Origin: Pochonia chlamydosporia 170
Lineage: Eukaryota > Ascomycota > Sordariomycetes > Hypocreales > Clavicipitaceae
Assembly: GCF_001653235.2 (NCBI RefSeq)
Contig: NW_019154045.1
Location: forward strand, 248,001-312,000
Direction of reading: 5' to 3'
DNA length: 64,000 bases
A program made the translations under genes and the position numbers. Positions 26,708-42,379 of this stretch are shown here, in pieces. How positions within the stretch are numbered: the stretch's first letter is position 1; every line of letters starts with the position of its first letter. The notes beneath the pieces are model-generated. The model searched no databases. It was not told the origin of the DNA and was given only the letters and a program-made list of their open reading frames with translations.

Positions 26708-27998
26708 ATGTCAACTACATCGCGACTATTTCAATTAAGCGGAACTTGCAACAATTACCCATGGGGTAAGAAAGGCCATGATTCTCTCGCTGCTAGGCTT
26801 TGCGAGAAGACTCCCGGGGCTGGATTTGCTGTAAATGATGATCAGTATTATTCTGAACTCTGGTTTGGCGACTATCCCAACTTTCCAGCGAGGGACTTGG
26901 AAACTGGCCAACCACTTGCCGAATTGTTAAAAGCCCATAAAGAAAGTCTCTTGGGCTCATACTCGATGAAGAAGTTTGGAGACCAGCTTCCATTTCTTCC
27001 AAAGGTATGCTGGACTGTTTCCCCGACAAGCTCAACGCTGTTAACCCAAGAGATCACAGATCCTTTCAATAGACAAAGCTTTGCCATTGCAAATTCACCC
27101 GAATAAACCGCTCGCGGCCAAGCTTCACGAGAAGAATCCAGACAAGTTCTCAGACTCTAACCATAAGCCGGAGATTGCGGTGGCGCTGTCGCGATTCGAG
27201 CTCTTCGCTGGCTGGAGAGACCTAAACCAGATATCTCCCTTGTTCAACATTCCGAGCCTACGGGGTTTCGTACCCGAAGGAACGGAGTCCTGGAACGACG
27301 AAACGCTCAGAAACATAGTTCGTGGGATATTAAAGGCAGATGAACAAACTGTTCAGAATATCGAAGAGGACTTGAAGCGACAGTCTGAACGAGATATCGA
27401 GAGACTAGGTTACCCGAGCTCCATGTTCGAGCTAATTCGCCGCCTTCAATCTCAATACTCAGCCACAGACCCCGGATTATTGGTCGCGATACTATGCATG
27501 AACTATCTTGTCCTGGAACCTGGAGAGGCAATCTTCATTGCCGCTGACGGCGTCCATTGTTACTTGTCTGGGGACATCGTGGAGTGCATGGCTCGTTCCA
27601 ATAACATGCTCGCAGGTGGACTCTGTCCTGTTGCCGACCGCGACAGTATTGACCTTTTTGCCGAGACTCTTCGGATTGACTCAAGTACGCGGTTGGATAA
27701 TCTGAGGTTGCCAGCCAGGCCGAGTGAAGAGGTGGCAAACGGACATGCCTTACTTTACCAGCCCCCAATTGGCGAATTTGACATGGTTCGGATTGACATG
27801 CCGGCTGGAAAGGAGGAGTTGATTTGGGATCACAAGGGTCCTACCGTGGCTATTGCGATTTCTGGCGAGGGCACAATTTTGGGGGATGGAAAAGAACTTG
27901 CCGTCAAAGACGGATACATTTTCTACATTGCGGCGGAAACCACTACGATGCTACGCGCAGAGACTGCCTTGCAGATATACGCTGCTGTTATACGATAA
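26708..27998 (+). CDS. Type I phosphomannose isomerase-like protein (divergent)
   Basis: Homologous to mannose-6-phosphate isomerase, which interconverts fructose-6-P and mannose-6-P for mannosylation. Two exons (26708-27004, 27060-27998) join FLPK to ILSIDKALPLQIHPNKPLA, giving 411 residues. Zinc-binding LQIH, DSNHKPE and a His in ADGVHCYLSGD are present, as are ELWFGDYPNFPA and the Trp of the NNYPWG start. However, the usual VRAGLTPK segment after the SDN motif, which carries the catalytic Arg, reads MLAGGLCPVADRDS here. The family's otherwise near-invariant region is therefore changed. It may be an accessory paralogue with altered activity; the housekeeping isomerase would be elsewhere. 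Confidence 0.82.
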
Positions 27999-28602
27999 AC
28001 AGAGTAATAAATACTAGCCAAACTTTAGATTCCGTTTCTCGAATTGAACTACACCCGTCCTCGCAGCTGTGCCACTTACGTCATGTTACTACACCTCACT
28101 TTTCTAGCGTATAGACTATACAGTCTAGACAAATTTGCATAGAACTACCGAGCCCTTAGGTCAATGATCTTTCTTTACGTGAGATTATCTTATGTAAATG
28201 CTCCCCGTTGGTTTTAGCAACCTCTTCTTCTACAGCAATCCCTGGTTCATTGTCGACGCCAAATATTTGCAATACACCTAACCCCAATGACAACGTTACT
28301 CGGTATATGCCACAAGGGTCGATGATGCTGGCCTAGAGCACTCACAAAGACTAAGACGCCGAACCTGGATAAACTTTTCTCTCCTACAGAAAACATATGT
28401 ACTAACAAACGCCTGCTTTCTCATTTCTCCGCTTTTTGAGTTATGTATAAGCAATCATAACATGGACATTAATATACAAAACGGTGCAAAACAGTACGTT
28501 AACCCTTTTATATCAGCATTGGACTTGTTGACGGTTTGGAAACAGCACAGTGCAGCCACTACCCACGCCATATCGCTCAAGACTTCAGTGAATTTGGTCC
28601 CT
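27999..28602. other. Convergent intergenic stretch, no gene seen
   Basis: About 600 bases between two facing 3' ends. It is AT-rich with no recognisable product. Confidence 0.4.
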
Positions 28603-29616
28603 CTATGCCGGAAGCTCGACAGGAATTCTCCTCGGGGAAGCGGGCATTTCGTAGAGACCATGTCCTTGCGTCTTTTCAGCTAAATTGCAATGCTTTGAAG
28701 TTGTCCTCGGGGTCTCTGCCCTTGAAGCACCGTAGAATGAAGGCATTCTTCGAGACCTGCCTCTCCTGAGATATACGACGATTATGACCGCTCCGCATAT
28801 CACTACCAGACCGCCGAGAACAGCGCCTACGATGGCACCAATATTCGGCGATGCGGTAGTTTCTTCAGATGTAGTTGTTAACGCTGATGAAGTTGTCGGG
28901 ACAATCGATGTAACATTTGTAGGAGTAACGGTAGGGGTAACGTTTGTAAGGGTCACAGTTGACAGCACCGAGCCAGCAGCTGCGGATGTTGACTTTGACG
29001 ACGACGAAGATGACGAAGATGATGACTCCACGGTGGTGGTAGGGACGTCCGCCGTTGGTAAGGCTTGATAATGGACGGTTCCGGGATCTGGACCGCAATG
29101 ATAGTATTCGTATGTTTGATCGACCCCGAATGTGAGATACGCAAAGGAACAGTACTTGGAATTGGGATCACTCTGGGTGCTGGAAAACTTCTCAGTAATG
29201 TGTCTCGTTGGAGCAGAGCGGACTTAGAAGCCTTACCACGTCCATGTCGTGATATCAGGGTTGTCTTTTAGTCGGCCACAACCGTCTTTGCAATTATTCT
29301 GATCAAAACAATAACCCCCTAATCCGCAATCTGTAGCAGCAATCACGGTTGTGGGACAGAATCCCCATAGTCCATGAGACGTGTCTACACGGCAGTCGTA
29401 TCCTTTCGGCGCCGACCAGCCTTTCTTGGGGTTCCCCGTAAGATATCCACATGTTGAAGTCCTGGTTGCCACTATTGCTCGTTCGTTTAATGTCGCTGGT
29501 CGGGTTGGTGCTGGAGGGTTCGGGTGCGCAAAAACATGGCTCTGAGAGCCGCAAAACGCGAATATCGCAACAAGTAGTTCAATCATTGGGCATTTCGTGG
29601 TCTTCTTCGTCGTCAT
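28603..29616 (-). CDS. Single-pass surface protein with Ser/Thr-rich stalk (Mid2/WSC-sensor-like)
   Basis: Two exons (29237-29616, 28603-29179) give 318 residues. A hydrophobic N-terminus (IELLVAIFAFCGSQSHVFA) is a signal peptide. If the ATG at 29586 is used it sits at the very start. A Cys-rich ectodomain follows, with TSTCGYLTGNPKKGW, CGLGGYCFDQNNCKDGCG and, across the splice, KYCSFAYLTFG. Next comes a Ser/Thr-rich stalk with a run of ten serines and repeated TVTPTNVT-like units. One membrane span (IGAIVGAVLGGLVVICGAVI) is followed by a basic stop, RRGRSRR, and a short cytosolic tail. This architecture is that of fungal cell-wall sensors and adhesins. The ectodomain is not a standard WSC domain, so the ligand is unknown. 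No GPI signal is seen. Confidence 0.8.
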
Positions 29617-30358
29617 AGATGTTGTTCACTGGTCAAGACAGACGCTACAAGTCGTAGTTTGGATTTTTGAGACATTCCATCACAATTATGAGGGCGGCGA
29701 TAGGCATCACGGACACAATTCCTATTAATAACCAAGAGGAGCTTGTCATTCATTGCCATCGCAAGTCCGTGCTTTCAGTGCATTCAAAGGCGAGAAAATG
29801 GCTTTTTACACAGGCTCATTCACAACCAATAAATCACTTGCTTCCCCTGAGTTCTTTGGCATTACGGCTGACAGTCGACAGTTGATGAGACATCACCACT
29901 TTACGGACAAGCCCACGAGTTTCGAGTTATACTCTTATACTACTTGATTTAAACGAAATTGTGGAAGAGGCGACTGATGTCGCGCAAGATGAATCCAAAT
30001 GTAGGGAGGAGATGGCAGTTTTGATGAACAAAGACCAGCTACAGCCTGTCTATGGAGTATTTCGCGCAAAGACACGCCCCTCCGCTCTGGGGATGGTAAT
30101 ATATCATTTTTCAAAACATATCCCCACTGCAACTGTGCAACGTGCACGGAACAAGGCTAGCCGTCACCAATGGTAGAGTTGGAATAAGCGCCATGTTGGT
30201 CTGAGAGATGATGTTGGTTCTAGACGGCAGCAGTTGAACTGTGCCCCAGGAGCTGACTTTGATCTCATCTTGTCTCTCCAATTTAAAACAAGCTCGGTCC
30301 GCCTGCCCCTGACACACTTTTCGCAGAGGACGAAACCTCGTGCTGGGAGGCTGCCGTC
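29617..30358. other. Divergent intergenic region
   Basis: About 740 bases between the surface-protein gene (reverse) and the mannosyltransferase gene (forward). Small open frames on both strands show no family resemblance. It likely holds both promoters. Confidence 0.4.
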
Positions 30359-31677
30359 ATGAACATTGGCGTCATGATGCATCGTCGGAGCCGCCTCTCA
30401 GTATGTACAACCTTGCTTGTTTTCATTGTCGTTGCTGCGCTGTACTTTCACAATAATACGGCGTCAAGGTTATATCATCCCGGGCTTATCACTACTACAA
30501 AAAATGATGAAATACCGCCTGGAGGTTTGTATTAATCTCAACACCATATTGACGAATTCCTAAATCTTACCACGGCTTAGGCATACTATCTCGGGGAAAT
30601 GTCACATCATACATCGGTGCAATTTTTGACCAGAAAAAGACTCACCTCCCCAAGCTCAACTGCTTGAACTCAGACTTCAAGCGGTATGAGCATCTCAAAA
30701 TCTCTGCAACTTCATCAAAAACACCGTACTTTTTCGCCTTGAACCTCCGTGAGAACCTAGCTGTTCTTCCCAGGCTGTTGGGAAGCATCGTCGAAGTTAT
30801 CCAGTTCCTAGGCCCCAGCAATTGCGCTCTTTCAATCGTAGAAGGGAACTCTCCAGATGGAACTGGTGATGTTTTAGCTGCATTACAAGCGCATCTTGAC
30901 AAGGGGCTCCGAACGCACATCGTGCTTGGCAATAAAATCAACCCACTGGAGGGGTTAAGGTTCGCAAAACTCGCAGAGCTGAGAAATCTAGCTCTCAAGC
31001 CGATTCTGGAAGAGCCTGAGAGATATTCTGATTCAACAGTCATTTTTGTGAATGACGTCGTTATTTGTCCAGATGATATTCTCGAGCTCATCCATCAGCG
31101 AGTCCACCTTGCCGCAGATATGACATGCGCAATGGACTGGGTCTATGGTTCGGCAGTTCCCACATTCTACGATGTGTACATTGCGCGCGGCATAAACGGC
31201 GATTTATTCTTTGATGTGCCTCCGGATGTCAGTTGGTCTAAAGCTACAAATCTGTTCTGGAACGACCCAGAGTCAAAAGAGCGATTCAACTCGAATCGAC
31301 CAGTGCAAGTGTTTGCGTGCTGGAACGGGGCAGTCGCATTCACAGCCAACCCAGTTGCTACGAAACAAGTAACTTTCCGTGCGGCTCGCGAGAACACGGG
31401 AGAATGCTATAATGGGGAGCCTGAGATATTTTGCAAAGATCTGTGGTTCCATGGCTACGGTAAAATAGCCGTAGTGCCATATATTCACCTGGCGTATACG
31501 AACGAGGCAGGAAAGCGGATCAAAGATGAAAAGGGATACACATCAAAGGTTGTGAAAAGGTTGACCTCAGAAGATGCAATGCAGTGGAAGCCGCCGCCAG
31601 AAAAAGTTAAGTGTATGCCGTCGTTCGACAGACAGTCATGGCAAGTTTGGAACGAAACCTTGGGGGACCATATCTAA
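30359..31677 (+). CDS. CAP59/CMT1-type alpha-1,3-mannosyltransferase
   Basis: A probable Golgi type II membrane glycosyltransferase of 420 residues. Exon 1 (30359-30524) encodes a short basic tail and a membrane anchor (LSVCTTLLVFIVVAALYF). Exon 2 (30581-31677) holds the catalytic domain of the Cryptococcus CAP59/CMT1 family: IVEGNSPDGTGDVL, KLAELRNLALKPI, VIFVNDVVICPDDILELI (the DxD-like acidic cluster), ADMTCAMDWVYG, PTFYDVYIARGINGD, VFACWNGAVAFTA and NGEPEIFCKDLWFHGYGKIA. In Cryptococcus these enzymes mannosylate capsule or cell-surface glycans; here the acceptor is unknown. The domain is complete. Its neighbour is a surface protein with a Ser/Thr stalk, though nothing ties the two together beyond position. 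Confidence 0.9.
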
Positions 31678-31802
31678 TGTTTTGAGGTTATATTTAATGG
31701 GATATATTCAGGTTTGATCTGCCTTGCATCATACAGAAATATGGATTTGCCCATCTAACATGCAATTTTCTACTATTTTGTACAAGCCGTGAGTCATATT
31801 AC

Positions 31803-34736
31803 TCAAGACTGCCACCGCACCTTTTCCTCAGCCAGTGTGCGATACAAACCCAGCGACAAAAACTCCTCCTCGGCAATAGATCCACCAAACTTTTCTTTCA
31901 GTTCTGACTCAAAGTATGCCGCTGCCCATTCGTTAGTACTGGGCTGTGTGCTACCCAGCCTCAGAATCGGCGGGTCAAACATCGACTTATACCAGTCGCC
32001 CAAGGCGGAACTATGCTCCTCGCTGGTGGAAACGTAGTCGCTGAATGACATGAAAGTTGGCACGCCCATAGCTTTATCGGTGCTTTCAGTCTTTCCCTCG
32101 AATGTTGGGACCGCGACTAGTTGTTTGCCAAGTTTGTTCTTCTCGCTCTCCGCATGCAACCTCTCCCCAAATAATCTACTATCAACGCGGTACGCATCCG
32201 ACAGTTGACGTCTCATGACTTCAAAGTGCTTTGCCATGGGTGGCATGAACTCATCGTCCGTATCCTCTTCTTTGACAATGTCAACATACTTGGCGAAAGC
32301 TGGCACAGGATTTGCCAACCCCAAGCCACCACTCTCGACGCCCATATATAAGAAACAGTCGGGCAGATCATACTGACGCTGGAGAGCAAACTGGTCCTGA
32401 ATCATCTTCCTTACATGTTTCGCCACGTTGGCTGTCTCTGACGCATCCTGAACTGCAGAAGACTCGTCACCACCGTAGAGGCACTGCTGTGCGTATTGCA
32501 GCGCCTCAAGTACCGTTATCGCATGGAAGTCCCCCAACCCGTTGACAACTCTGCCAAAGTTGTTGGCTAGAAAACTTTCCATGTATGCGTTATAAGCTTG
32601 TATGTGCGCCATGACCGAGGTCCGCGAGCTTAGTTGATACCTCAGCTCCTTCATGTGTTCCTCGATGGCGCGTTTATTCGCCGCCCACTTCCACTCACTG
32701 GGATCATACTGTAAAAATCCCCATTTGACTTCACCAGAGGGCAGACGATCAAGGGTACTCTGTGCGACTGCAGCATACCGCGGATTCGACTTGTCAACAG
32801 AGTGAGCAGACGCGGTCTTGCGCTTGTTTAGACGCAAGCCCATGATGTTGGAGAACTCGCATACTGTGTCCCAGGCCACCACGCACTTCTCTGGCTGGCC
32901 CCAGAACCAGAGGTCGTCGTGGTTGCGGTACAGATGCGTCCCTTCAGTTCGCTGATTAACGGCAAAGTCCAGCGTGAACAACATCAGCTCGGATATGCCG
33001 TACGTGAGCTGGAAGGATATCGGGGTGCCGGTCCGCCGAGTCAAGACGGGGCCATTGCTGCCATCCTCCTCAAACCTCATTCGCATGCTCAGAAACGCCT
33101 CAACAAAGTGCACTAGCTCGCCTGGGAAGTGAAAGTACTTCATGATGGCGAGCAGTGTAGAGTGTGGTTGCGACGGACCAAACCACTCAAAGTCGCTTTG
33201 CAAGATACAGAACTGGCCGTGGACAAGCTTCTGGATGGCCATCTCGGCAGAACAAAGGTTCAGAATATTGCTTCTCAGCGTAGTTCTGTTTGGTGCTCCG
33301 TTTACCAAGTCGGTAAACCTAGGTCCATTGTCGATAGGTCGGCTGCATGGGTCGTATGAGTTACCCACGTCTCCTGTGTACGTTGGCAGCTGGGCGGCAA
33401 AGAAGGCGTTTTGGTATATTCTGTGACGCAGGTCGTAGACTGAGTTACCAGACTTGCGGCTCCCGTAGTCCTCTATTTGCGCCTGCATCGCCGCGTTTCT
33501 CCCTTCGTCCGATGGTTGCATCCACACGTCCCGGACTTCAGACGACCACGCTTTTTGCAATACACTCCCGATGTTCAACGAGACGTGTTGACCGATACAC
33601 TCGATAAGAATGGCATCAAGAAGCTCCAAATCGAGATGTACGTGATATTTCCCGTTAATAGCCTTGCGCATCTGCACCGTGATGGGGTTCTCGCCCCAAG
33701 ACCAGCGTTTGATCGACTCCAGGTTCGTGTCGATGTTGAGGATATCTGCAATCTCTGACAAGACATTGACTTTGTCGCTTATATCGAGCATCGCACGTCG
33801 TTTCTCACTGGTGAGCTGATCGGCGCTGAGAACACCACGTATGGCGTCTCTGACCGTTGACGTCGTCACTTGCATCTTGTTTCTACACGAGGAAAAGAAC
33901 TCTCGTCGCAAGTTGCGCAAAAGTATGGCACGCAAGTCCGTTGGTTCACCCACCAACTTGTCTTCGTACCGCGGTCCAGAGTGAAATAGTTCGTCCAGAA
34001 AGTTGACAATTTTGTCCGTGTCCGTCCGACGCTCGTTGGTGACATGTCGTTCCCAAGTTTGACGCTGTTCGTACATCTCCTTGCGGCCCACGGCCACGGC
34101 TTCAGACTTTTCCAACTCCTTTGCCGCGGACAACTCACCGAAACGAAACTCTGCCCACTCGTTGGTCAGATGGCCGAAGAGAGCTGTGTATTCCATCCGG
34201 CGCTGACGCTGCCGAAGATAGCCCAGCAACTCATTGCGCCATGCCAACGCGGCGGATTTGGAGAAGACTGACGAGTACTTTGCTTCCCAAAGCATGCGTT
34301 CAATCATGACAAGTCGATCTCGAAGTCTCACGGCTGGACCACCAGTGCCCGCACCGCCAATGCCACCTCGTCCTCGTCCTCGCCCTCCTCCTCTTCCCAT
34401 ATGTCCCCTTCTGCCTCTTTGATTAACTGATCCATGACCTTGGACCGGTGAATCGAGGGCCCCAGCATATGCCTTGCGTACGGTTGCCAGCAGCATAAGC
34501 ACATCAGCCTCTAATTTGCGGTTGTCGTCTTGACCCTCCTTGTATTGGATTGCGGCTTCGGCATCACGCACATGGCCATCAATCGCCTCTAGACGGCTAG
34601 CAACTTTGTCCCATTTGCTTACCGTCACATGTCTGATGATAGAAAGAATGGCAGCTGACCCCGCTGATGTAGACATTATTGGCGATAGCCTGGTGATGAA
34701 TATTGCAGCGGGTAAAGTACAGCTTTCAAGTCTCAA
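31803..34736 (-). CDS. rvt: Single-copy cellular reverse transcriptase (RVT family)
   Basis: One uninterrupted frame of 977 residues (957 if the second ATG at 34676 is used) encodes a reverse-transcriptase-like protein of the domesticated rvt class known from fungi and rotifers. Palm motifs are present in order. Motif A is LQSDFEWFG with Asp at about 515, and the motif B region is RRTGTPISFQLTYGISE. Motif C is YRNHDDLWFWG with the Asp pair at about 607-608. Motif D is NIMGLRLNKRKTAS. The N-terminal 300 residues are helical with a Gly/Arg-rich segment (RGGGRGRGRGG), and a long conserved C-terminal extension follows the palm. No gag, integrase, endonuclease, LTR or poly-A tail is found, and the frame is intact, so it is a host gene and not a retroelement. 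From memory, RVT in Neurospora is induced by growth inhibitors or starvation and polymerises nucleotides without an obvious template. Confidence 0.9.
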   Translation of the reverse strand: MRLESCTLPAAIFITRLSPIMSTSAGSAAILSIIRHVTVSKWDKVASRLEAIDGHVRDAEAAIQYKEGQDDNRKLEADVLMLLATVRKAYAGALDSPVQGHGSVNQRGRRGHMGRGGGRGRGRGGIGGAGTGGPAVRLRDRLVMIERMLWEAKYSSVFSKSAALAWRNELLGYLRQRQRRMEYTALFGHLTNEWAEFRFGELSAAKELEKSEAVAVGRKEMYEQRQTWERHVTNERRTDTDKIVNFLDELFHSGPRYEDKLVGEPTDLRAILLRNLRREFFSSCRNKMQVTTSTVRDAIRGVLSADQLTSEKRRAMLDISDKVNVLSEIADILNIDTNLESIKRWSWGENPITVQMRKAINGKYHVHLDLELLDAILIECIGQHVSLNIGSVLQKAWSSEVRDVWMQPSDEGRNAAMQAQIEDYGSRKSGNSVYDLRHRIYQNAFFAAQLPTYTGDVGNSYDPCSRPIDNGPRFTDLVNGAPNRTTLRSNILNLCSAEMAIQKLVHGQFCILQSDFEWFGPSQPHSTLLAIMKYFHFPGELVHFVEAFLSMRMRFEEDGSNGPVLTRRTGTPISFQLTYGISELMLFTLDFAVNQRTEGTHLYRNHDDLWFWGQPEKCVVAWDTVCEFSNIMGLRLNKRKTASAHSVDKSNPRYAAVAQSTLDRLPSGEVKWGFLQYDPSEWKWAANKRAIEEHMKELRYQLSSRTSVMAHIQAYNAYMESFLANNFGRVVNGLGDFHAITVLEALQYAQQCLYGGDESSAVQDASETANVAKHVRKMIQDQFALQRQYDLPDCFLYMGVESGGLGLANPVPAFAKYVDIVKEEDTDDEFMPPMAKHFEVMRRQLSDAYRVDSRLFGERLHAESEKNKLGKQLVAVPTFEGKTESTDKAMGVPTFMSFSDYVSTSEEHSSALGDWYKSMFDPPILRLGSTQPSTNEWAAAYFESELKEKFGGSIAEEEFLSLGLYRTLAEEKVRWQS

Positions 34737-34807
34737 ATGGTTTTTGCGGATCGTAAACTACCTGTTCCTTCAATCCATCCGAATCTCTTTCGTCAGTCTC
34801 TCGCTCT

Positions 34808-34815
34808 TTTTTATA
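34808..34815 (-). promoter_or_regulatory. TATA box of the rvt gene
   Basis: TATAAAAA on the reverse strand lies 72 bases before the first ATG (34736). With initiation about 30 bases downstream, both candidate ATGs would lie inside the transcript. Confidence 0.45.
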
Positions 34816-36948
34816 CATTTTTTCAAAGCTCATGAACCTTTTGCCAAGAGTCCTTGGCGGGTTTACATTCCCAGCCGCAATGGGTCAACTGTTGCCTGCA
34901 TGGCTGCCTGGACTGCGGAATATCGCATCCAGCCGTGTTGACATGGTGAAATGGAAATGAAAAGTACCGTCCAACAGGACCCTGAGCCAGGATTAACCAC
35001 AGTTTCGTAATTTTATTGATCCCAAGTCTTCGGTATGAGGCACTCTCCCCGTGTTGAGTCATCCGGCATCACTCGTTTGTTCACTGTCGACGTCGATGCT
35101 CAGCCCCATTATTGTTTGAAGCGCCGAACAGATGCTGAAAGATTCTCGCTTGGAGATAAAAGGCTGCAGCCGAATGGCGCATTGAACTCTTGTTGGCGGG
35201 GTCTCAGATTGGCTTCAACCATGCAATGGAGAGAAAGTGCTTCATGAGACAGATCTGACCCCTTGCTGGTCAATGAATTAAACCTGGAAGTCGTTTTTCG
35301 GCGTCGAACAGCTCGAGCCCTACATACCAGGCTCTGTTCATGCAATGGTTGAGCCGCAACATTCTAGTTGATTGCTGAAAGAGCTGGTTGGCAATAATCC
35401 AATATTCGAGATCTCCCGCCAGGGTATCCTGGCGAGACTCACGAGCAGATTTGTAGAGTCCCAGCCCCAAAGATTAGAATTACACCATTTTAATGAATCA
35501 AAACCTGCCAGCTAACCGCATCAACTATTTGTCTCGTTATTGTGGCACTAGAGAATATGCATGTTGCCTGCCCAAAACCTGTTTTATTGTAGAAGTGCAT
35601 AACCACTACAGTCCAAGCTGGTAATGTGGCAAGTAAACTATTTGGCATATTTCATAGTTGCCTCATAAGTGCTACCATTTCGAGGTGGAACCTGGCACCA
35701 TTCTGACACAGTACACTCAGTCGCACACAGCCCGTTGAGTTGATTCTAGACGCTATAAGAGATAGAAAAACGCCTCATTGTGTCAAATGCGGCCAGCAAG
35801 ATGAATCAAAGTCAGTCACGAGCAACATACGCACAATAGCCGGGTATTCAGTCTCCAGCCCAACCGCCATGAACATGAACACTGGTAGGAGCTGAAGGAG
35901 AAGACGTCGACAGTTTCGCGAAAGACCGAAAGAGACTGCAGTGTTTTGGCCCTATCTCGAGCACCAGGCGTCCGAATCCATTTCCGTGACACCGTCTCGA
36001 TTTCTTTGCTTACGTTGTGACCAAGACGTTGGCGTTTCCGGCAAAGAGTATCCGTTTGCAGAGACTGAGAAGCAGTCAACATGTTAACTATCCAAGCATA
36101 AATCCGATGGATAGACCGGTTATCCCAAGAAAACCTCACAGAGAAACTCACACAGAAACCAGAAACAGCGACGCCAATACCGATGCTTCAACTGACTCGA
36201 CACCTTGCAAACATGTCAGTGTCACCTCGTCATTGGCCTTTTGCGACGAACATGCGGCCTGAACTGTGGCTGCCTTACAACTCCTTAGAATGCCGTCAGA
36301 GCCGGACAGAACTCACAGAGCGAATCAGCAGATGAGATGATGTCCGCCTTAAAACCGTAGGGGGCAGGTTTGCGACAGAGGAGCCGTGTCCGACGTTTCT
36401 GGTGCCAAGCGATTGACTGGCCACGAGACGCCACAAAAGGACAAAATAGGCAACGCAGAACAGTATCCACAAACAATCCCCATGACACAAAACCAAGTTT
36501 GTTACAAGGACCCTTACCCTAGTGCTTAGGTGGAATCCAAGAACTGGTAGGCGATGGCTTCCCGGCAGGGCTGGGAAAACGAGACGGTATGAGTTGCAGG
36601 TAACGTCATTCGCGAACACTTGATGTCGAACATGGCCTACGTGAAATCTCACCAACCAGCATTTTTTCTTGTGCGTCAACCATGCGTCGATCCGACAGTG
36701 CATCTTCCGGCCTCCGTTGTGACAGATGCATGGTCTTCAGGTTGTAAGTGTTGTTTCTGGCGTCGATCATGTTGATTGGCTGTCAGGCTTGAAGAAAAGT
36801 CAAGAGACATGGTGTTTGGAATTAGGCCTCCGATGTTATTTTGGGTGCTTGATTCCCTCGTCTCGAAAACCTTCTCATTCATTCATCGAAATGAGCAAGT
36901 TTTTGAGTGAGCAGGTTTTCTTGTTTACTTACTTCACAAAAATACACC
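34816..36948. other. Long divergent intergenic region between rvt and an MFS gene
   Basis: About 2.1 kb. It includes a Gcn4/CPC1-type palindrome at 35055-35061. Reverse frames at 35816-36151 and 36296-36703 contain hydrophobic stretches but cannot be joined to a known family, so I do not call a gene. Confidence 0.4.
35055..35061. promoter_or_regulatory. Candidate CPC1/Gcn4 site upstream of rvt
   Basis: TGAGTCA, the palindromic Gcn4/CPC1 consensus, lies about 320 bases upstream of the rvt start. Such 7-mers occur several times by chance in 64 kb (others are seen inside genes), so this is only suggestive. Confidence 0.25.
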
Positions 36949-38610
36949 ATGTCCATCGACGAAGAGACAACCTTTTTACAAGCCGAAGATGAGGAAGGAT
37001 CTTGTATCACAACAAGCAGCCCACATTATACTGCCGACCATGATGATATCTTTGGCAGTTCGGGCAGTCCAATGGATTGGCCAACGCCATTCAAATGGCG
37101 GACCGTGGCCATGCTAGCCTTTGCAGCGTTTACAGTGTATGGGCACCGTCCCATATATTGCTCAGTATTTGCACCCCCAAACTAACATTGGCTCAAGATC
37201 ATTTAATTCCATCTCCATATTCCCAATAGCAAACTTTGTGGTCCACGATCTAGCCGCTGATCACGTAACCAAGGCGGATACAGTACTCATGGTCACGATA
37301 TGGGAGCTTGGCGAAGCTGTAGGGGCGCTTCTCATCGCACCCCTGTCTGAGATGTTCGGGCGATATCATCTGTACAACGCATGCAACGTGGTCTTCATTA
37401 TGGGAGCAACGGCAACAGCGCTCTCACAGAGCACGACAGTGTTCATAATGGCGCGGGCGCTTACAGGCATGGCAGTGGCATCGAATGTGTTGAACCCAGC
37501 CATTATCGGAGATATATACCCATCGGAGCAGAGAGGCTCTGCCATGAGTGTCATCATGCTCGCTACGCTTGCGGGCGGTAATCTGGGTCCAGCCCTGGGC
37601 GGAATCATCTCGCAAATTCTCGGTTGGCGCGCTGTGGTTTGGATAGGCGTTACTCTCGCCGTGGCCTGTGAACTGGTGTTCCTAACGTGTTTCAAAGAGA
37701 CATATCGCGCTCATGTTTCCCAGAGAGACAACGCCAAGCTTCTCACGGAGTCTAGTTACGCCTTTGATGGAACGGCTGGCTTGGACAAGAATCTATCCGG
37801 TCTGCGAACTGCGGTGATGCGGCCTGCCCGTTTGCTCTACGGCTCTGGCGTGTTGGCGTGCCTGGCCTTATTTGGGTCCGTCATATTCTCCTTCTTTTAT
37901 GATGTCCTCGTGACTCTTCCAAGTGTTTTGGAAGAGACATATGACCTGTCACCGGCGGCGGTAGGGTCATCCTTCTTGGCAAACGGTGAGAAAACACCAC
38001 CTCCTACGGAGTTCTGCCCGTTCTCCCCATATCTTCTATATCCACTCTGACACATATGTTTCTCCATCCAGGAATCGGTTCCTTCATTGGTATTATGATT
38101 TCCAAAATGTACTTGGACAAGATCTATGTCAAACTAAGAGCGGCCAACAACGGTGTCGGACAACCAGAATATCGGCTCCCCGTAGCCATCATCGGCGCCT
38201 TCATGTTGCCCCCGGCGGTAGCACTTTACGGTTGGTGTGCAGAAACCCAGCTTCCACTTACACTGCTTCTTCTGTCTGTGGTTGCGATGCGCCTGTCCCT
38301 GATGCTCGCCATCGTGCCACTCATGACATATATTGTCGATGCATTTGGTCTCTACTCGGCGTCTGCAATGAGTGGCGTCATCGTGCTTCGGTGCCTTGCA
38401 TGCGCCTTTCTATCACTTACCACTGTTCAAATAACTGAATTTCTCGGCGACGGCTGGGGATTCACCTTGCTCGGAGCTGTGTGCATGGTTCTCGCCCTGA
38501 TTCCAGTCATGATACTGCGGTATGGCCAGCACTGGAGGCAACGGTGTAGATATACCAGCCTTTCCCAGGATTCTACAGAACATCTCCCAGTTGCCTGCAT
38601 CGAAGGATAG
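36949..38610 (+). CDS. MFS multidrug-type transporter (DHA1 family)
   Basis: A plasma-membrane proton-coupled exporter of the polyamine/multidrug branch, 504 residues. Three exons (36949-37136, 37198-37985, 38072-38610) are joined in frame. The acidic cytosolic N-terminus is followed by FKWRTVAMLAFAAFTV, TVLMVTIWELGEAVGALLI, PLSEMFGRYHLYN (loop 2-3 motif), ALTGMAVASNVLNPAIIG, SEQRGSAMSVIMLATLAG and ALGGIISQILGWRAVVWI (motif C-like). The second half starts after a long loop (FKETYRAH) and carries FDVL-like YDVLVTLPSVLEETYDL. About twelve hydrophobic spans can be counted. The substrate is unknown. It is not a partner of the broken MFS copy at 5.3-5.7 kb, which belongs to another subgroup by its motif wording. 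Confidence 0.88.
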
Positions 38611-39193
38611 GTTGATCCACTTCGCTAGAGGCTTGTCATGGAGTGTTGGTGTTTTGTGTGACGTATTAGTACAGCGCGGTGTAGTACCGCGTATTATAAC
38701 ATTTGTAATCGTTCAGGGTGTCATGGCGTATTTAGCATATATGAAGCGAGGATATATCATCAAAAGTTGTACATAGAATGTTGCATGGCGAGAGGAGACA
38801 TTATTCATTCACAACCCGGCATGTTGGTTGGCGCTCAAGGTCATAATTAGGAAAATGCTACAATGGGTGAACCACAAGCCGCAGGAGGAATTATGACAAG
38901 CTGAAAAGACGGGAAAGTGCAGAGACGAAAGCAAAGGGCACAAATTAATCAGTTTATTGCTACTGCTTAACTCGTGGTTCATGGTTCAAACGGCAATACC
39001 AATAACGTGATATATGTGCCGTCTAGTAATCGATCACTAGTTGTTGACTAAATGAAGTCTATAACCTGCCCTCAAGGCTTTTAACGCCAAACGCCACATC
39101 CATGAATGAATCTGCCCCAGTCTCGTATCCAAATCGTTACCCATGCCATTCCCCATATCGTCGTCGCTGATTGTTATGCCCCTAATGACCGTT
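38611..39193. other. Convergent intergenic stretch, no gene seen
   Basis: About 580 bases between the facing 3' ends of the MFS and Dre2 genes. Nothing recognised. Confidence 0.4.
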
Positions 39194-40148
39194 TTACAGT
39201 TGTACTTCGTTCATAATGCGCACCTCCTCGCCTGGCTTGAATGCTGGCAGTCCGATGAACGGACAAGTGGAGCATCTGAATGCATCTCCCAGCGAGCAGT
39301 TGTTGCACGAGCCCGTCTTGCCCTTGACAGTAAAATCGAGTTCGTTCAGGTCGTTTGTATCGAGCTTGATGGCCTCGAGGCCAGCATCCGCTTGGGATCG
39401 TCTCTCTTTTTCTTCGGCTTCGAATTTCGCGGCTAAGCCACAAGTGCAATCCTTGCAGGGACGACGGCGCTTCTGCGGCTGACATTCGACGGCTGCAAAA
39501 TGGTCAGTATTTTCTGATTCATATAGAAATGCGAACGGGGAACATACGCGCTTGTGGACGTCGCTTTAGGTCCTCCTCGCCAAGCAGGTTATCCTCATCG
39601 ATCAGCTCATCGTCATCATCGTCCAGCTTACTGAAGTCAAACTTTTGCACAGGCGCTGGCGTCTTTTTCTTGCCGAATCGCAGAGGAATGACAACTTCCT
39701 CCTCCTCTTGCTTCTCGAAATGGCCATCCTTGGCAATCAGGCCGGCGAGAATTGCCTCTTTGGACTCCGTCGCGCCCGGTTGGCCATCTTGGAACTGCAA
39801 TCTACCTCCCACTTTGATGGCGGGAACCAGAGAAGCAAACAGCTGACGGTTCAGCAATTGGGCAGACGCGGCAGTACGTGATCCATCAGCATCGGTAAGA
39901 ACGAGGACCAAGTCGTATGTAGCGGCAGGTAGAGACACAAATCCAGCAGAGAGCCGGTCTAGCATCTGCAAGTCGGTATTTGCCCGGTCGAAAGCCGTGA
40001 AGATTTCGCGTAGCTTCTCCTCGTGCGCCGCGACAGACGGGGGGGCAAGGAGCAGATTGCGCTTCGCGGGGTTCGCCACGGGAGGGAAAGCGGACGGCAT
40101 CGGCGCAAAGTCGTCCGCGGTATCAATGAGGATTGGATGAGGAGCCAT
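39194..40148 (-). CDS. dre2: Fe-S cluster assembly protein Dre2 (anamorsin)
   Basis: An electron carrier of the cytosolic iron-sulfur assembly pathway that takes electrons from Tah18. Two exons (39548-40148, 39194-39492) give 299 residues. The N-terminal methyltransferase-like domain (about 20-170) precedes an acidic linker ([20 protein letters not shown]), followed by the two cluster sites. The first is VEC..., then CKDCTCG (CxnCxxCxC), and the second is the twin CxxC pair [15 protein letters not shown] in the near-invariant setting ending [14 protein letters not shown]. All cluster cysteines are present. The splice restores the first Cys of the [2Fe-2S] site (PVECQPQ). It is a housekeeping gene and probably essential. 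Confidence 0.96.
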
Positions 40149-42379
40149 TGCGCGTACGGACGCTAGATGTCTGTGGGAGTACGTTCTTTATGGTGAAGGT
40201 ATTGACAGGACAGAGCGAGCGAGGGTTTGCGTGAGGTTTGAAATGTCTGTCCTGGGGTTGGATGTAACAGGCAACTTTTTAGTGCAAGCCGACGTCGGCA
40301 AGCCCGTTTTCACAGGCAAAAACTGCATCATGGCGGGGAAGGTGCGACCAAGGGCAGCGAAAAGTGACTAATTCGTCAGGCAGCATTTGTAATCGCCCAT
40401 TGGTCGGATCTCCCATTGGACCAGATGCCACTGGGCTGGCCCACGGTAAGGCTAGTCAGGGACCTTTGGGGGCCATTCTCGACCATATCAGAGCAAGAAC
40501 CATTGGCTGCTCCTTCCCTTACATTTGTGCTTCTGGTTGGCCAATGCACGCTTTTGTCTATTCTGACGGCAGTTGCGTTAGTCATCGCCTGATCATCTCG
40601 GCTGATGCACACCTAGGTATACTAGTCGTTGCCTCGATTGCTTCTTGGTACGTACGGAGTATCTTGCCAGACAAATCACCGAAGATTGAAGGCTATTGAC
40701 CAATCGCTACATTGGCGGAATACACAAAGCAACAAGACGTTCATGTTGTCCATATGTCGTCTAGCAGCTGACCCCACACAACAACCTTCGAATACACGTA
40801 TAAGTTCAGCCACGAGGACATATAGAGCTGTTTAGTCAAGTTCACGTCGCAAAATAGCTTGCATCGCCTTGCAAGTAAACACGTATCTTGACGAGAAACC
40901 TTTGGGATGACGTGGCTGGCTATGACACACCGTCAGAACATCAGCGGTTTGGTTTTAGCCAAGTCTTTGCCACGAAACATCAACACTTTGCTCAAGAGCG
41001 GTATGATTGACAACATGGATCTTTCAAGATGGTGTGACCGTGTCGGGGGTTCGTAAGTTGCTCATAAATAAAGTCATTGACAAGAGACCGACCGGGCCTG
41101 TCACGTCCGCATCGCTTATAAATCTAGACTATTTAACCTCCAGGAGCTGACTGTTTTAATAACCACTCATGTCCGTAACCCGCGCGGCTGATCCGTATAT
41201 GTACGGAATGCTTCACGGCTTGATACACGGCTAGACCCAGCCGTTTCTTGGCTAGATGAGCAGCTTGAACACCGACTTGGCTGCCTTGGCCAACGTCCCA
41301 TGGAGTGAAAAGGAGAGGGGAAACGAGGCCACACAATATCAAAATGGGCAAGCCGAAAGTATCAACCGGGGTTGGATACTCTGTACAGCGGCTCGCATCT
41401 GGCCATGATCCTCCATGTGGTCCGCCAAGGGCTTGGTAGAGAAAACGCCCCAACGTGGCGCTTCTTGGCAGTCTGGAAGATGCAACAACACGCAATCTAT
41501 TCGCAGCCGTGTTTGAGGCAATTACAACATAGCGCTGCAAGTAATCTTCATGTCATCCACAGAACAGGAATGTCGAAGACGTGAAGCCATGTGGTCGTGT
41601 CATGCACTAAGACGTTTCGCATCCTTGCGGCGATGATCACAGAGGATGGGGATATTAACACCTTATACTGCAGATTGACGGCGGAACTACAGGTGAAAGA
41701 TGTAACCCAAACATGGGACTTTAACATGTTCGTCTTGTCTCATTCCCACTGAACGTCATGTTCAGCCAACTTGGACTCTCCCGGCTCCAGAAGTCGATCA
41801 CCGTTCGGCGGCCCCCAACTGCCCACCTGCATCGTGACAATACTGTCGGTGTGATTAAGGTCAGGGTCTTGACTGACTCGGGAAACGACCACTCAAAATG
41901 GTTGAAGTTGATTTAAGCTTGAATGTAGAACCAGGGTTGTCTCCGCAAAGCGACTTGGCGCCTAGATATCCCCCAGATTTCCCAATATTAACCAACCATC
42001 CCCGAGAAAGGCCGTTACCTCCTTCTAAATAAAGAGTAGTCGCCAAAAATATATGAAGATTTCCAGTTTTGTGGGGTAAGAGGGATGATTTCAGACTGAA
42101 TCTCGCATCGTTTTCTCCGATTCAGGCGTCTTCGACTTGAACGCCACAAGAGAAAATATCGGAGGTGAGCAGCCTTGCATTCGACCAACACCAATATGCC
42201 AAGTGCCTTGTATCAGGAATAAATGGGGAGATATTGAGTCTGGAACGTTTCTTTGGTATGGCAGACGGGGTACAAGTAGTCGGCCTTCCGCCCTGGAAAT
42301 AAGACAAGAAGACATACTCTTCAACGATCATCATCGTTTGATAAACAAAGACATCCAGCCCTTGCTGAATATTTTCGCA
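40149..42379. other. Divergent intergenic region, no gene supported
   Basis: About 2.2 kb between the Dre2 and permease genes. The longest frames (forward 40364-40699, reverse 41133-41540) have no recognisable content. It likely contains both promoters and long 5' leaders. The permease frame extends upstream to an ATG at 42137, but that segment lacks family similarity. Confidence 0.4.

Follow-up and report, generated by a model that had tools for sequence, protein, structure and literature searches.

An intact reverse transcriptase gene

The 64,000-nucleotide stretch analysed here, hereafter the window, comes from Pochonia chlamydosporia 170 (contig NW_019154045.1, positions 248,001 to 312,000) and carries, on its minus strand at 31803..34676, an intron-free gene for a reverse transcriptase (RT) that we assign to the rvt class of domesticated RTs. 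An earlier reading made from the letters alone (the sequence-only reading) had described an uninterrupted frame of 977 residues. Its openness stands: the minus-strand frame at 31803-34736 comprises 977 codons from a TTG, or 984 from stop to stop, and since none of 2000 base shuffles kept a 957-codon frame open (computed P approx. 2e-20) and 23 homologues of 919-977 residues exist, the open frame is not a product of chance. Its start has to be moved, as the protein most likely begins at an ATG at 34676 and measures 957 residues: 21 of the 23 relatives begin at most two alignment columns from this methionine (P0002 and P0004 start at a more internal position), and the TTG at 34736 arises from the frame finder accepting TTG. 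Residue numbers throughout refer to the 957-residue protein. GC contents at the three codon positions (0.56, 0.42 and 0.60) follow the pattern expected of coding sequence, and the indices of repeat-induced mutation, based on dinucleotides, come close to those of the window as a whole.

The predicted model of the protein shows an RT fold with good confidence (predicted local distance difference test, pLDDT, 86), and an alignment of 141 family members (A5, from which four proteins of more than 1200 residues, P0026, P0027, P0044 and P0108, were left out) contains 32 invariant columns. Among these are the catalytic aspartates D495, D587 and D588, which the sequence-only reading had correctly placed at about 515 and 607-608 of the longer frame, as well as R547, G550, P552 and W590. 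The HDD box pointed out by the same reading is also present, and proves to be the norm of the family (H586 is His in 140 of 141). All on the minus strand, the core motifs recognised in the alignment are motif A at residues 490-506 (33159..33209; SDFEWFGPS, with D495), motif B' at 547-570 (32967..33038), motif C with the HDD box at 582-594 (32895..32933), motif D at 612-622 (32811..32843; MGLRLNKRKTA) and motif E at 650-657 (32706..32729; VKWGFLQY). Residue 559 of motif B' is Asp in 111 of 141 proteins; Tyr is confined there to the window protein and P0002.

Ahead of motif A, the model has a fingers beta-hairpin at residues 332-349 (33630..33683; strands 332-338 and 344-349, Y344 in 141/141), which we take to be the RT motif 2 region, followed by an insertion of 138 residues (350-487; 33216..33629). 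The latter was delimited by the model elements at 352-485 and by superposition on the group II RT 7k9y, aligned over 369 of the 536 residues of model region 263-798. Judged by the model, this insertion corresponds to the 'loop 2a' described as an rvt insertion between motifs 2 and 3 (PMC5718144). It includes a variable acidic loop at 432-463 (33288..33383), recognised by composition, length and a pLDDT below 50 at residues 443-450. The C-terminal extension (813-957; 31803..32240) is predicted to start with a long helix (813-850) and, in the alignment, holds the conserved tyrosines Y829 and Y896; long helices are also predicted near the N-terminus (3-42 and 140-191).

Copy number and mobile-element relatives

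A search of the 44.2 Mb genome with the window protein matched only the protein itself, and a 33%-identical Aspergillus relative and the RT_UG37 profile discussed below each gave one genome match, the rvt locus, so that three different queries bear out the single copy that had been claimed. The genome's 75 RVT_1 matches elsewhere, none of which lies on the window's contig (C10), contain at least one stop in 35 cases, in contrast to the intact rvt frame. Five imperfect pairs of repeats of at least 20 nt were found at 27000-40000, two of them direct and three inverted, with lengths of 20-34 nt and 71-85% likeness; none is placed like element ends. Among 52 family members (alignment A7), Pfam RVT_1 was found in 42, and the only element-type family among the 25 of 37 families listed was an integrase C-terminal domain in one member (E 0.08). 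Best matches to many-copied long interspersed nuclear element (LINE) or long terminal repeat (LTR) elements, and flanking element ends, were sought in the sequence and not found, in keeping with the earlier statement that retroelement parts are missing; a LINE, LTR or Penelope-like element was rejected on the grounds of the single copy, of no endonuclease, RNase H or integrase being found, and of no element ends. A telomerase RT, likewise a host RT, was also rejected: Pfam gave no RNA-binding domain in the window protein at E 1, whereas telomerase RT is a separate gene on contig C1, with its telomerase RNA-binding domain at 2349365-2349825 and an adjoining RVT_1 match.

Structural searching of the model with Foldseek gave the RTs of R2, LINE-1 and group II introns as best matches, at 9-17% identity. 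These share the palm, fingers and thumb but belong to mobile elements, and the similarity is a reflection of the general RT fold.

Relatives and class membership

A first search yielded 23 homologues with 48-97% identity, those with names coming from Lecanicillium, Cordyceps, Beauveria and Akanthomyces. With two distant members as queries, 448 proteins were matched at E <=0.001; the 120 of them that were listed, and used here, include named proteins from ascomycetes, basidiomycetes and the moss Ceratodon purpureus. The 24 window-like proteins make up a single clade (support 1.0) in a FastTree tree built on 839 columns; the branch between it and the remaining 117 sequences measures 1.58 substitutions per site, as compared with 0.51 and 0.37 for the branches to the basidiomycete and the Aspergillus/Penicillium groups. 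This long branch may represent true divergence, a transfer or missing intermediates; the last are a possible part-cause, since the protein searches score only candidates with common short words. The moss protein P0131, whose gene lies on a contig of 16.8 Mb, is placed beside Maublancomyces and three proteins without names, which fits reported horizontal transfers of rvt genes. Two rvt-like proteins each were seen in Bacidia gigantensis (P0035/P0101) and Pleurotus pulmonarius (P0042/P0079), so a single copy may not hold for every species.

The window protein and P0002 differ at 26 of 941 positions. None of these differences falls on the 121 columns conserved to at least 90% (one-sided Fisher P 0.027), three fall on the 270 columns at >=70% (P 0.034) and eight on the 437 columns at >=50% (P 0.076), a pattern that fits purifying selection, if weakly.

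The relatives are named 'reverse transcriptase' or hypothetical, and the comparison with rvt genes therefore goes by their published description. The assignment to the rvt class made by the sequence-only reading is sustained by the traits so described: like rvt genes (PMC3520738, PMC5718144, PMC10680173), the window gene is a single-copy host RT with loop 2a, relatives in fungi and a moss, and no element parts. It differs in the long branch of its clade, in an arginine-glycine (RG) insert shared by three members and in Y559 of the window protein and P0002.

A match to the RT_UG37 profile

Scanning against PADLOC-DB revealed that the profile RT_UG37 (PDLC03776, 778 positions), which we take to represent a prokaryotic class, matches all 52 members of A7 (best E 1.5e-81). 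It is the only PADLOC match of the window protein at E 0.01, with E 1.7e-37 over residues 138-802 (32271..34265, minus strand) and profile positions 78-667. PADLOC files it under DRT, the defence-associated RTs, a label that is no test of function. When six rvt proteins were scanned singly, RT_UG37 came first in all six, its best stretch covering 643-712 residues in five of them and 309 residues in the sixth, P0043, where two stretches passed. Other PADLOC profiles, where coordinates are given, cover approx. 60-210 residues of the RT core only. RT_UG37 at E 0.01 did not find the telomeric RT frame L012 of the same genome (see below), which served as a control and was matched by 20 RT profiles other than this one, the best with E 1e-10. 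As RT_UG37 matches every member scanned and other defence-RT profiles match the RT core only, rvt genes look, on sequence grounds, like a eukaryotic branch of the UG37 class.

The other defence RTs are more distant. The Drt9 profile matches 27 and AbiP2 19 of the 52 members (best E 2e-5), neither reaches the window protein at E 0.01, and in the seven proteins scanned with coordinates the matches span only 80-150 residues, the one AbiP2 match among them being of 80 residues. DRT9 (PDB 9ioa, 9nlv) is the best solved match of the family profiles (E 7.4e-5 to 0.065) but is a bacterial, RNA-templated enzyme of 499 residues. In NCBIfam, weaker matches were to group II intron RTs (7 of 10, best E 1.6e-8) and Drt3a (2 of 10). 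AbiK is neither among the 50 structural matches listed nor among the 25 of 39 PADLOC families listed, which excludes nothing; AbiK/Abi-P2 would resemble the window protein in mechanism only, through published untemplated synthesis primed by a tyrosine in the fingers loop, and differ in being bacterial phage-defence proteins.

With eukaryotic queries, no bacterial rvt gene was found in GTDB contigs, viral contigs, plasmids or phages; given such queries, bacterial rvt genes may still exist. The plasmid tblastn returned 71 records, none covering 80% of the query, and among the 20 listed the best coverage was 15-27%, mostly in annotated group II intron RTs. A pattern search of viral DNA gave 43 loci, and the six-frame profile scan one match of E 0.006 over 25 residues. 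An N-terminal similarity to ribosomal protein eS1 (E 0.02-0.14) was dismissed as chance, being absent with the 24- and 52-member profiles; an eS1 gene is present in the genome itself. Telomerase and Penelope-like RTs are connected with UG classes in a 2025 preprint, which does not place rvt in the sections covered (PMC12632851). No relevant paper on UG37 was found in the literature within reach, of which the main rvt papers were not part, and the link may already be published.

A tyrosine in the acidic loop

The variable acidic loop contains one residue, Tyr441 (33354..33356, minus strand), that is Tyr in 141 of 141 proteins. Its eight neighbours on either side have a mean conservation of 0.27, the lowest around any column conserved to at least 97%. 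The segment 431-463 is 16-46 residues long across the family, has exactly one Tyr in 116 of 141 members, and is rich in Asp and Glu (26% vs 14% in the whole protein). If the Tyr frequency of each protein is used, the probability of finding a Tyr in all clusters comes to 2.8e-13 with 39 clusters (below 60% identity), 3.6e-5 with 15 (below 50%), 0.011 with seven (below 45%) and 0.084 with four (below 40%); the strength of the invariance thus depends on how far relatedness is discounted. We put Tyr441 forward as a candidate priming residue, not as a finding. The priming Tyr44 of AbiK sits in a loop without secondary structure (PMC9508834). The same literature, again without the main rvt papers, yielded nothing on a tyrosine conserved in this loop of rvt proteins.

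Other features of the window

The sequence-only reading had left a Gly/Arg-rich segment unexplained, along with the conserved N- and C-terminal extensions; the segment is not itself a conserved extension. The segment, at residues 83-111 (34344..34430, minus strand), is disordered in the model (pLDDT <50) and lineage-specific. Stretches rich in RG, defined by six or more RG or GR pairs in a span of 30 residues, occur in eight of 141 proteins, and at this position in only three of them, the window protein, P0002 and P0004; the others lie near the N-terminus in P0028, P0042, P0123 and P0142 and near the C-terminus in P0092. It looks like an RG-rich tail gained repeatedly, not like a family feature, and would plausibly bind nucleic acid.

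Upstream of the gene, at 35055..35061, lies a TGAGTCA, which we take to be a Gcn4/CPC1-like site, 379 bp from the ATG. Approx. 0.05 such sites are expected per 400 bp; the window has 10 against 8.1 expected, the upstream site is not significant alone, and it is thus a lead only and may be chance. A scan for promoters of bacterial type gave a result no different from shuffles. The neighbouring frames are ordinary: a CAP59-type mannosyltransferase (30553-31677, plus strand), an MFS transporter (37118-38050, plus strand) and DRE2 (39519-40187, minus strand).

Elsewhere in the genome, two copies of a 980-residue RT frame, L012 (C11:550-3492) and L013 (C17:214800-221000), are 99.8% identical over 4269 bp and lie within approx. 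6 kb of contig ends, with CCCTAA repeats adjoining the C11 copy. Its motifs include YIDD and RPIVPS, its RVT_1 match is weak (25.1 bits), and Pfam at E 0.1 gave no endonuclease domain; presumably the frame belongs to a telomere-attached Penelope-like element in an ascomycete.

Discussion

We consider it probable, with room for doubt, that the frame is an intact rvt gene and that its product is a host-encoded, non-mobile RT-like polymerase with a stress-induced, untemplated activity that may be primed on Tyr441. The rvt family has been known since 2011, when Gladyshev and Arkhipova reportedly described such genes, among them RVT of Neurospora crassa. Proteins of this family are reported to have an N-terminal coiled coil that multimerises. 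In two meeting reports, RVT of Neurospora has been described as non-essential for growth, dramatically up-regulated under a block of protein synthesis and possessing terminal transferase activity (PMC3520738), and rvt proteins as polymerising without a template, with catalytic residues that are needed for stress relief (PMC10680173). As every catalytic residue is present, the same activity is the best guess for the window gene, and by analogy with the Neurospora protein it most likely encodes a stress-induced, non-templated polymerase. Following the reports on Neurospora RVT, the gene would be switched on when protein synthesis or the supply of amino acids fails, and the enzyme would add nucleotides without a template; chains may start on the protein itself, Tyr441 of the acidic loop reaching the active site in the manner of AbiK Tyr44, the C-terminal residues would be a competing priming site, and the long N-terminal helices probably help multimers to form.

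Several observations weigh against parts of this reading. The window protein matched no Pfam family at E 1, a PDB search with the single sequence listed no RT (best E 0.08), four of its five weak matches fall on the Gly/Arg stretch, and the signal of selection fades at looser cut-offs. Tyr441 lies nine residues from a conserved Leu-Pro (430-431) in 109 of 141 proteins, and the mean pLDDT is 77 for residues 431-440, then 47 for 441-450; with this frequent spacing and the better-predicted block before it, Tyr441 may be a structural anchor. In the bacterial HaRVT, tyrosines near the C-terminus are reportedly implicated (in a 2018 paper), and DRT10 is primed from a serine near the C-terminus, DRT9 from tyrosines (PMC12483538, PMC12632851). 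Priming by the conserved C-terminal tyrosines Y896 and Y829, as in DRT9, with Tyr441 pinning the loop to the fingers, is accordingly a real possibility, though one in which we place less than even confidence. Y896 is found in 138 and Y829 in 135 of 141 proteins, and in DRT9 the tail tyrosines Tyr496 and Tyr498, which prime, adjoin the active site, their change to Phe impairing synthesis (PMC12483538); but Y896 is Trp in P0042, P0055 and P0079 and lies in a predicted helix (890-898), and Y829 is replaced by Trp in three different proteins and by His in another three. No member lacks both, so that either could serve.

It is unlikely that the enzyme is instead templated by a dedicated RNA, as are DRT9, DRT10 and telomerase, with its untemplated activity in vitro a side reaction: the fold and catalytic triad are complete and DRT9, the best solved profile match, uses a non-coding RNA, but the activity reported for rvt proteins is non-templated, and no Rfam RNA was found at 29000-38000, where RNAs not yet described would be invisible to Rfam. 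A non-enzymatic, structural remnant of an RT as in Prp8 is highly improbable, given the Asp triad invariant in 141 of 141 proteins and the reported need for catalytic residues in stress relief (PMC10680173). That the gene belongs to a retrotransposon, or encodes telomerase, is hardly credible at all. The RT motifs and the R2 and LINE-1 proteins at the top of the Foldseek results would suit such a reading; what Foldseek matched is the core that these enzymes have in common, and the single copy, the separate telomerase RT and the lack of element-like ends speak against it.

To return to the stress-induced polymerase that we prefer, a bolder version, speculative and rather unlikely as a whole, would have rvt genes as a eukaryotic branch of UG37, still growth-arresting or antiviral, with chains primed on Tyr441 of the acidic insertion loop, which would explain the purpose of that loop. 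It should be noted that the RT_UG37 profile also matches in three of 14 control genomes, the same three as RVT_1, and hence can catch other RTs, which cautions against over-reading the link.

The window gene itself is an ordinary member of a family of conserved, host-owned RTs. The RT_UG37 match ties this family to a bacterial group, all experimentally characterised UG enzymes being implicated in phage defence (PMC12632851), and for fungi this makes viruses and growth arrest worth considering besides starvation. Should Tyr441 prove to be the primer, changing this single residue would allow protein-primed synthesis to be told apart from the extension of ends in a fungus amenable to laboratory work.

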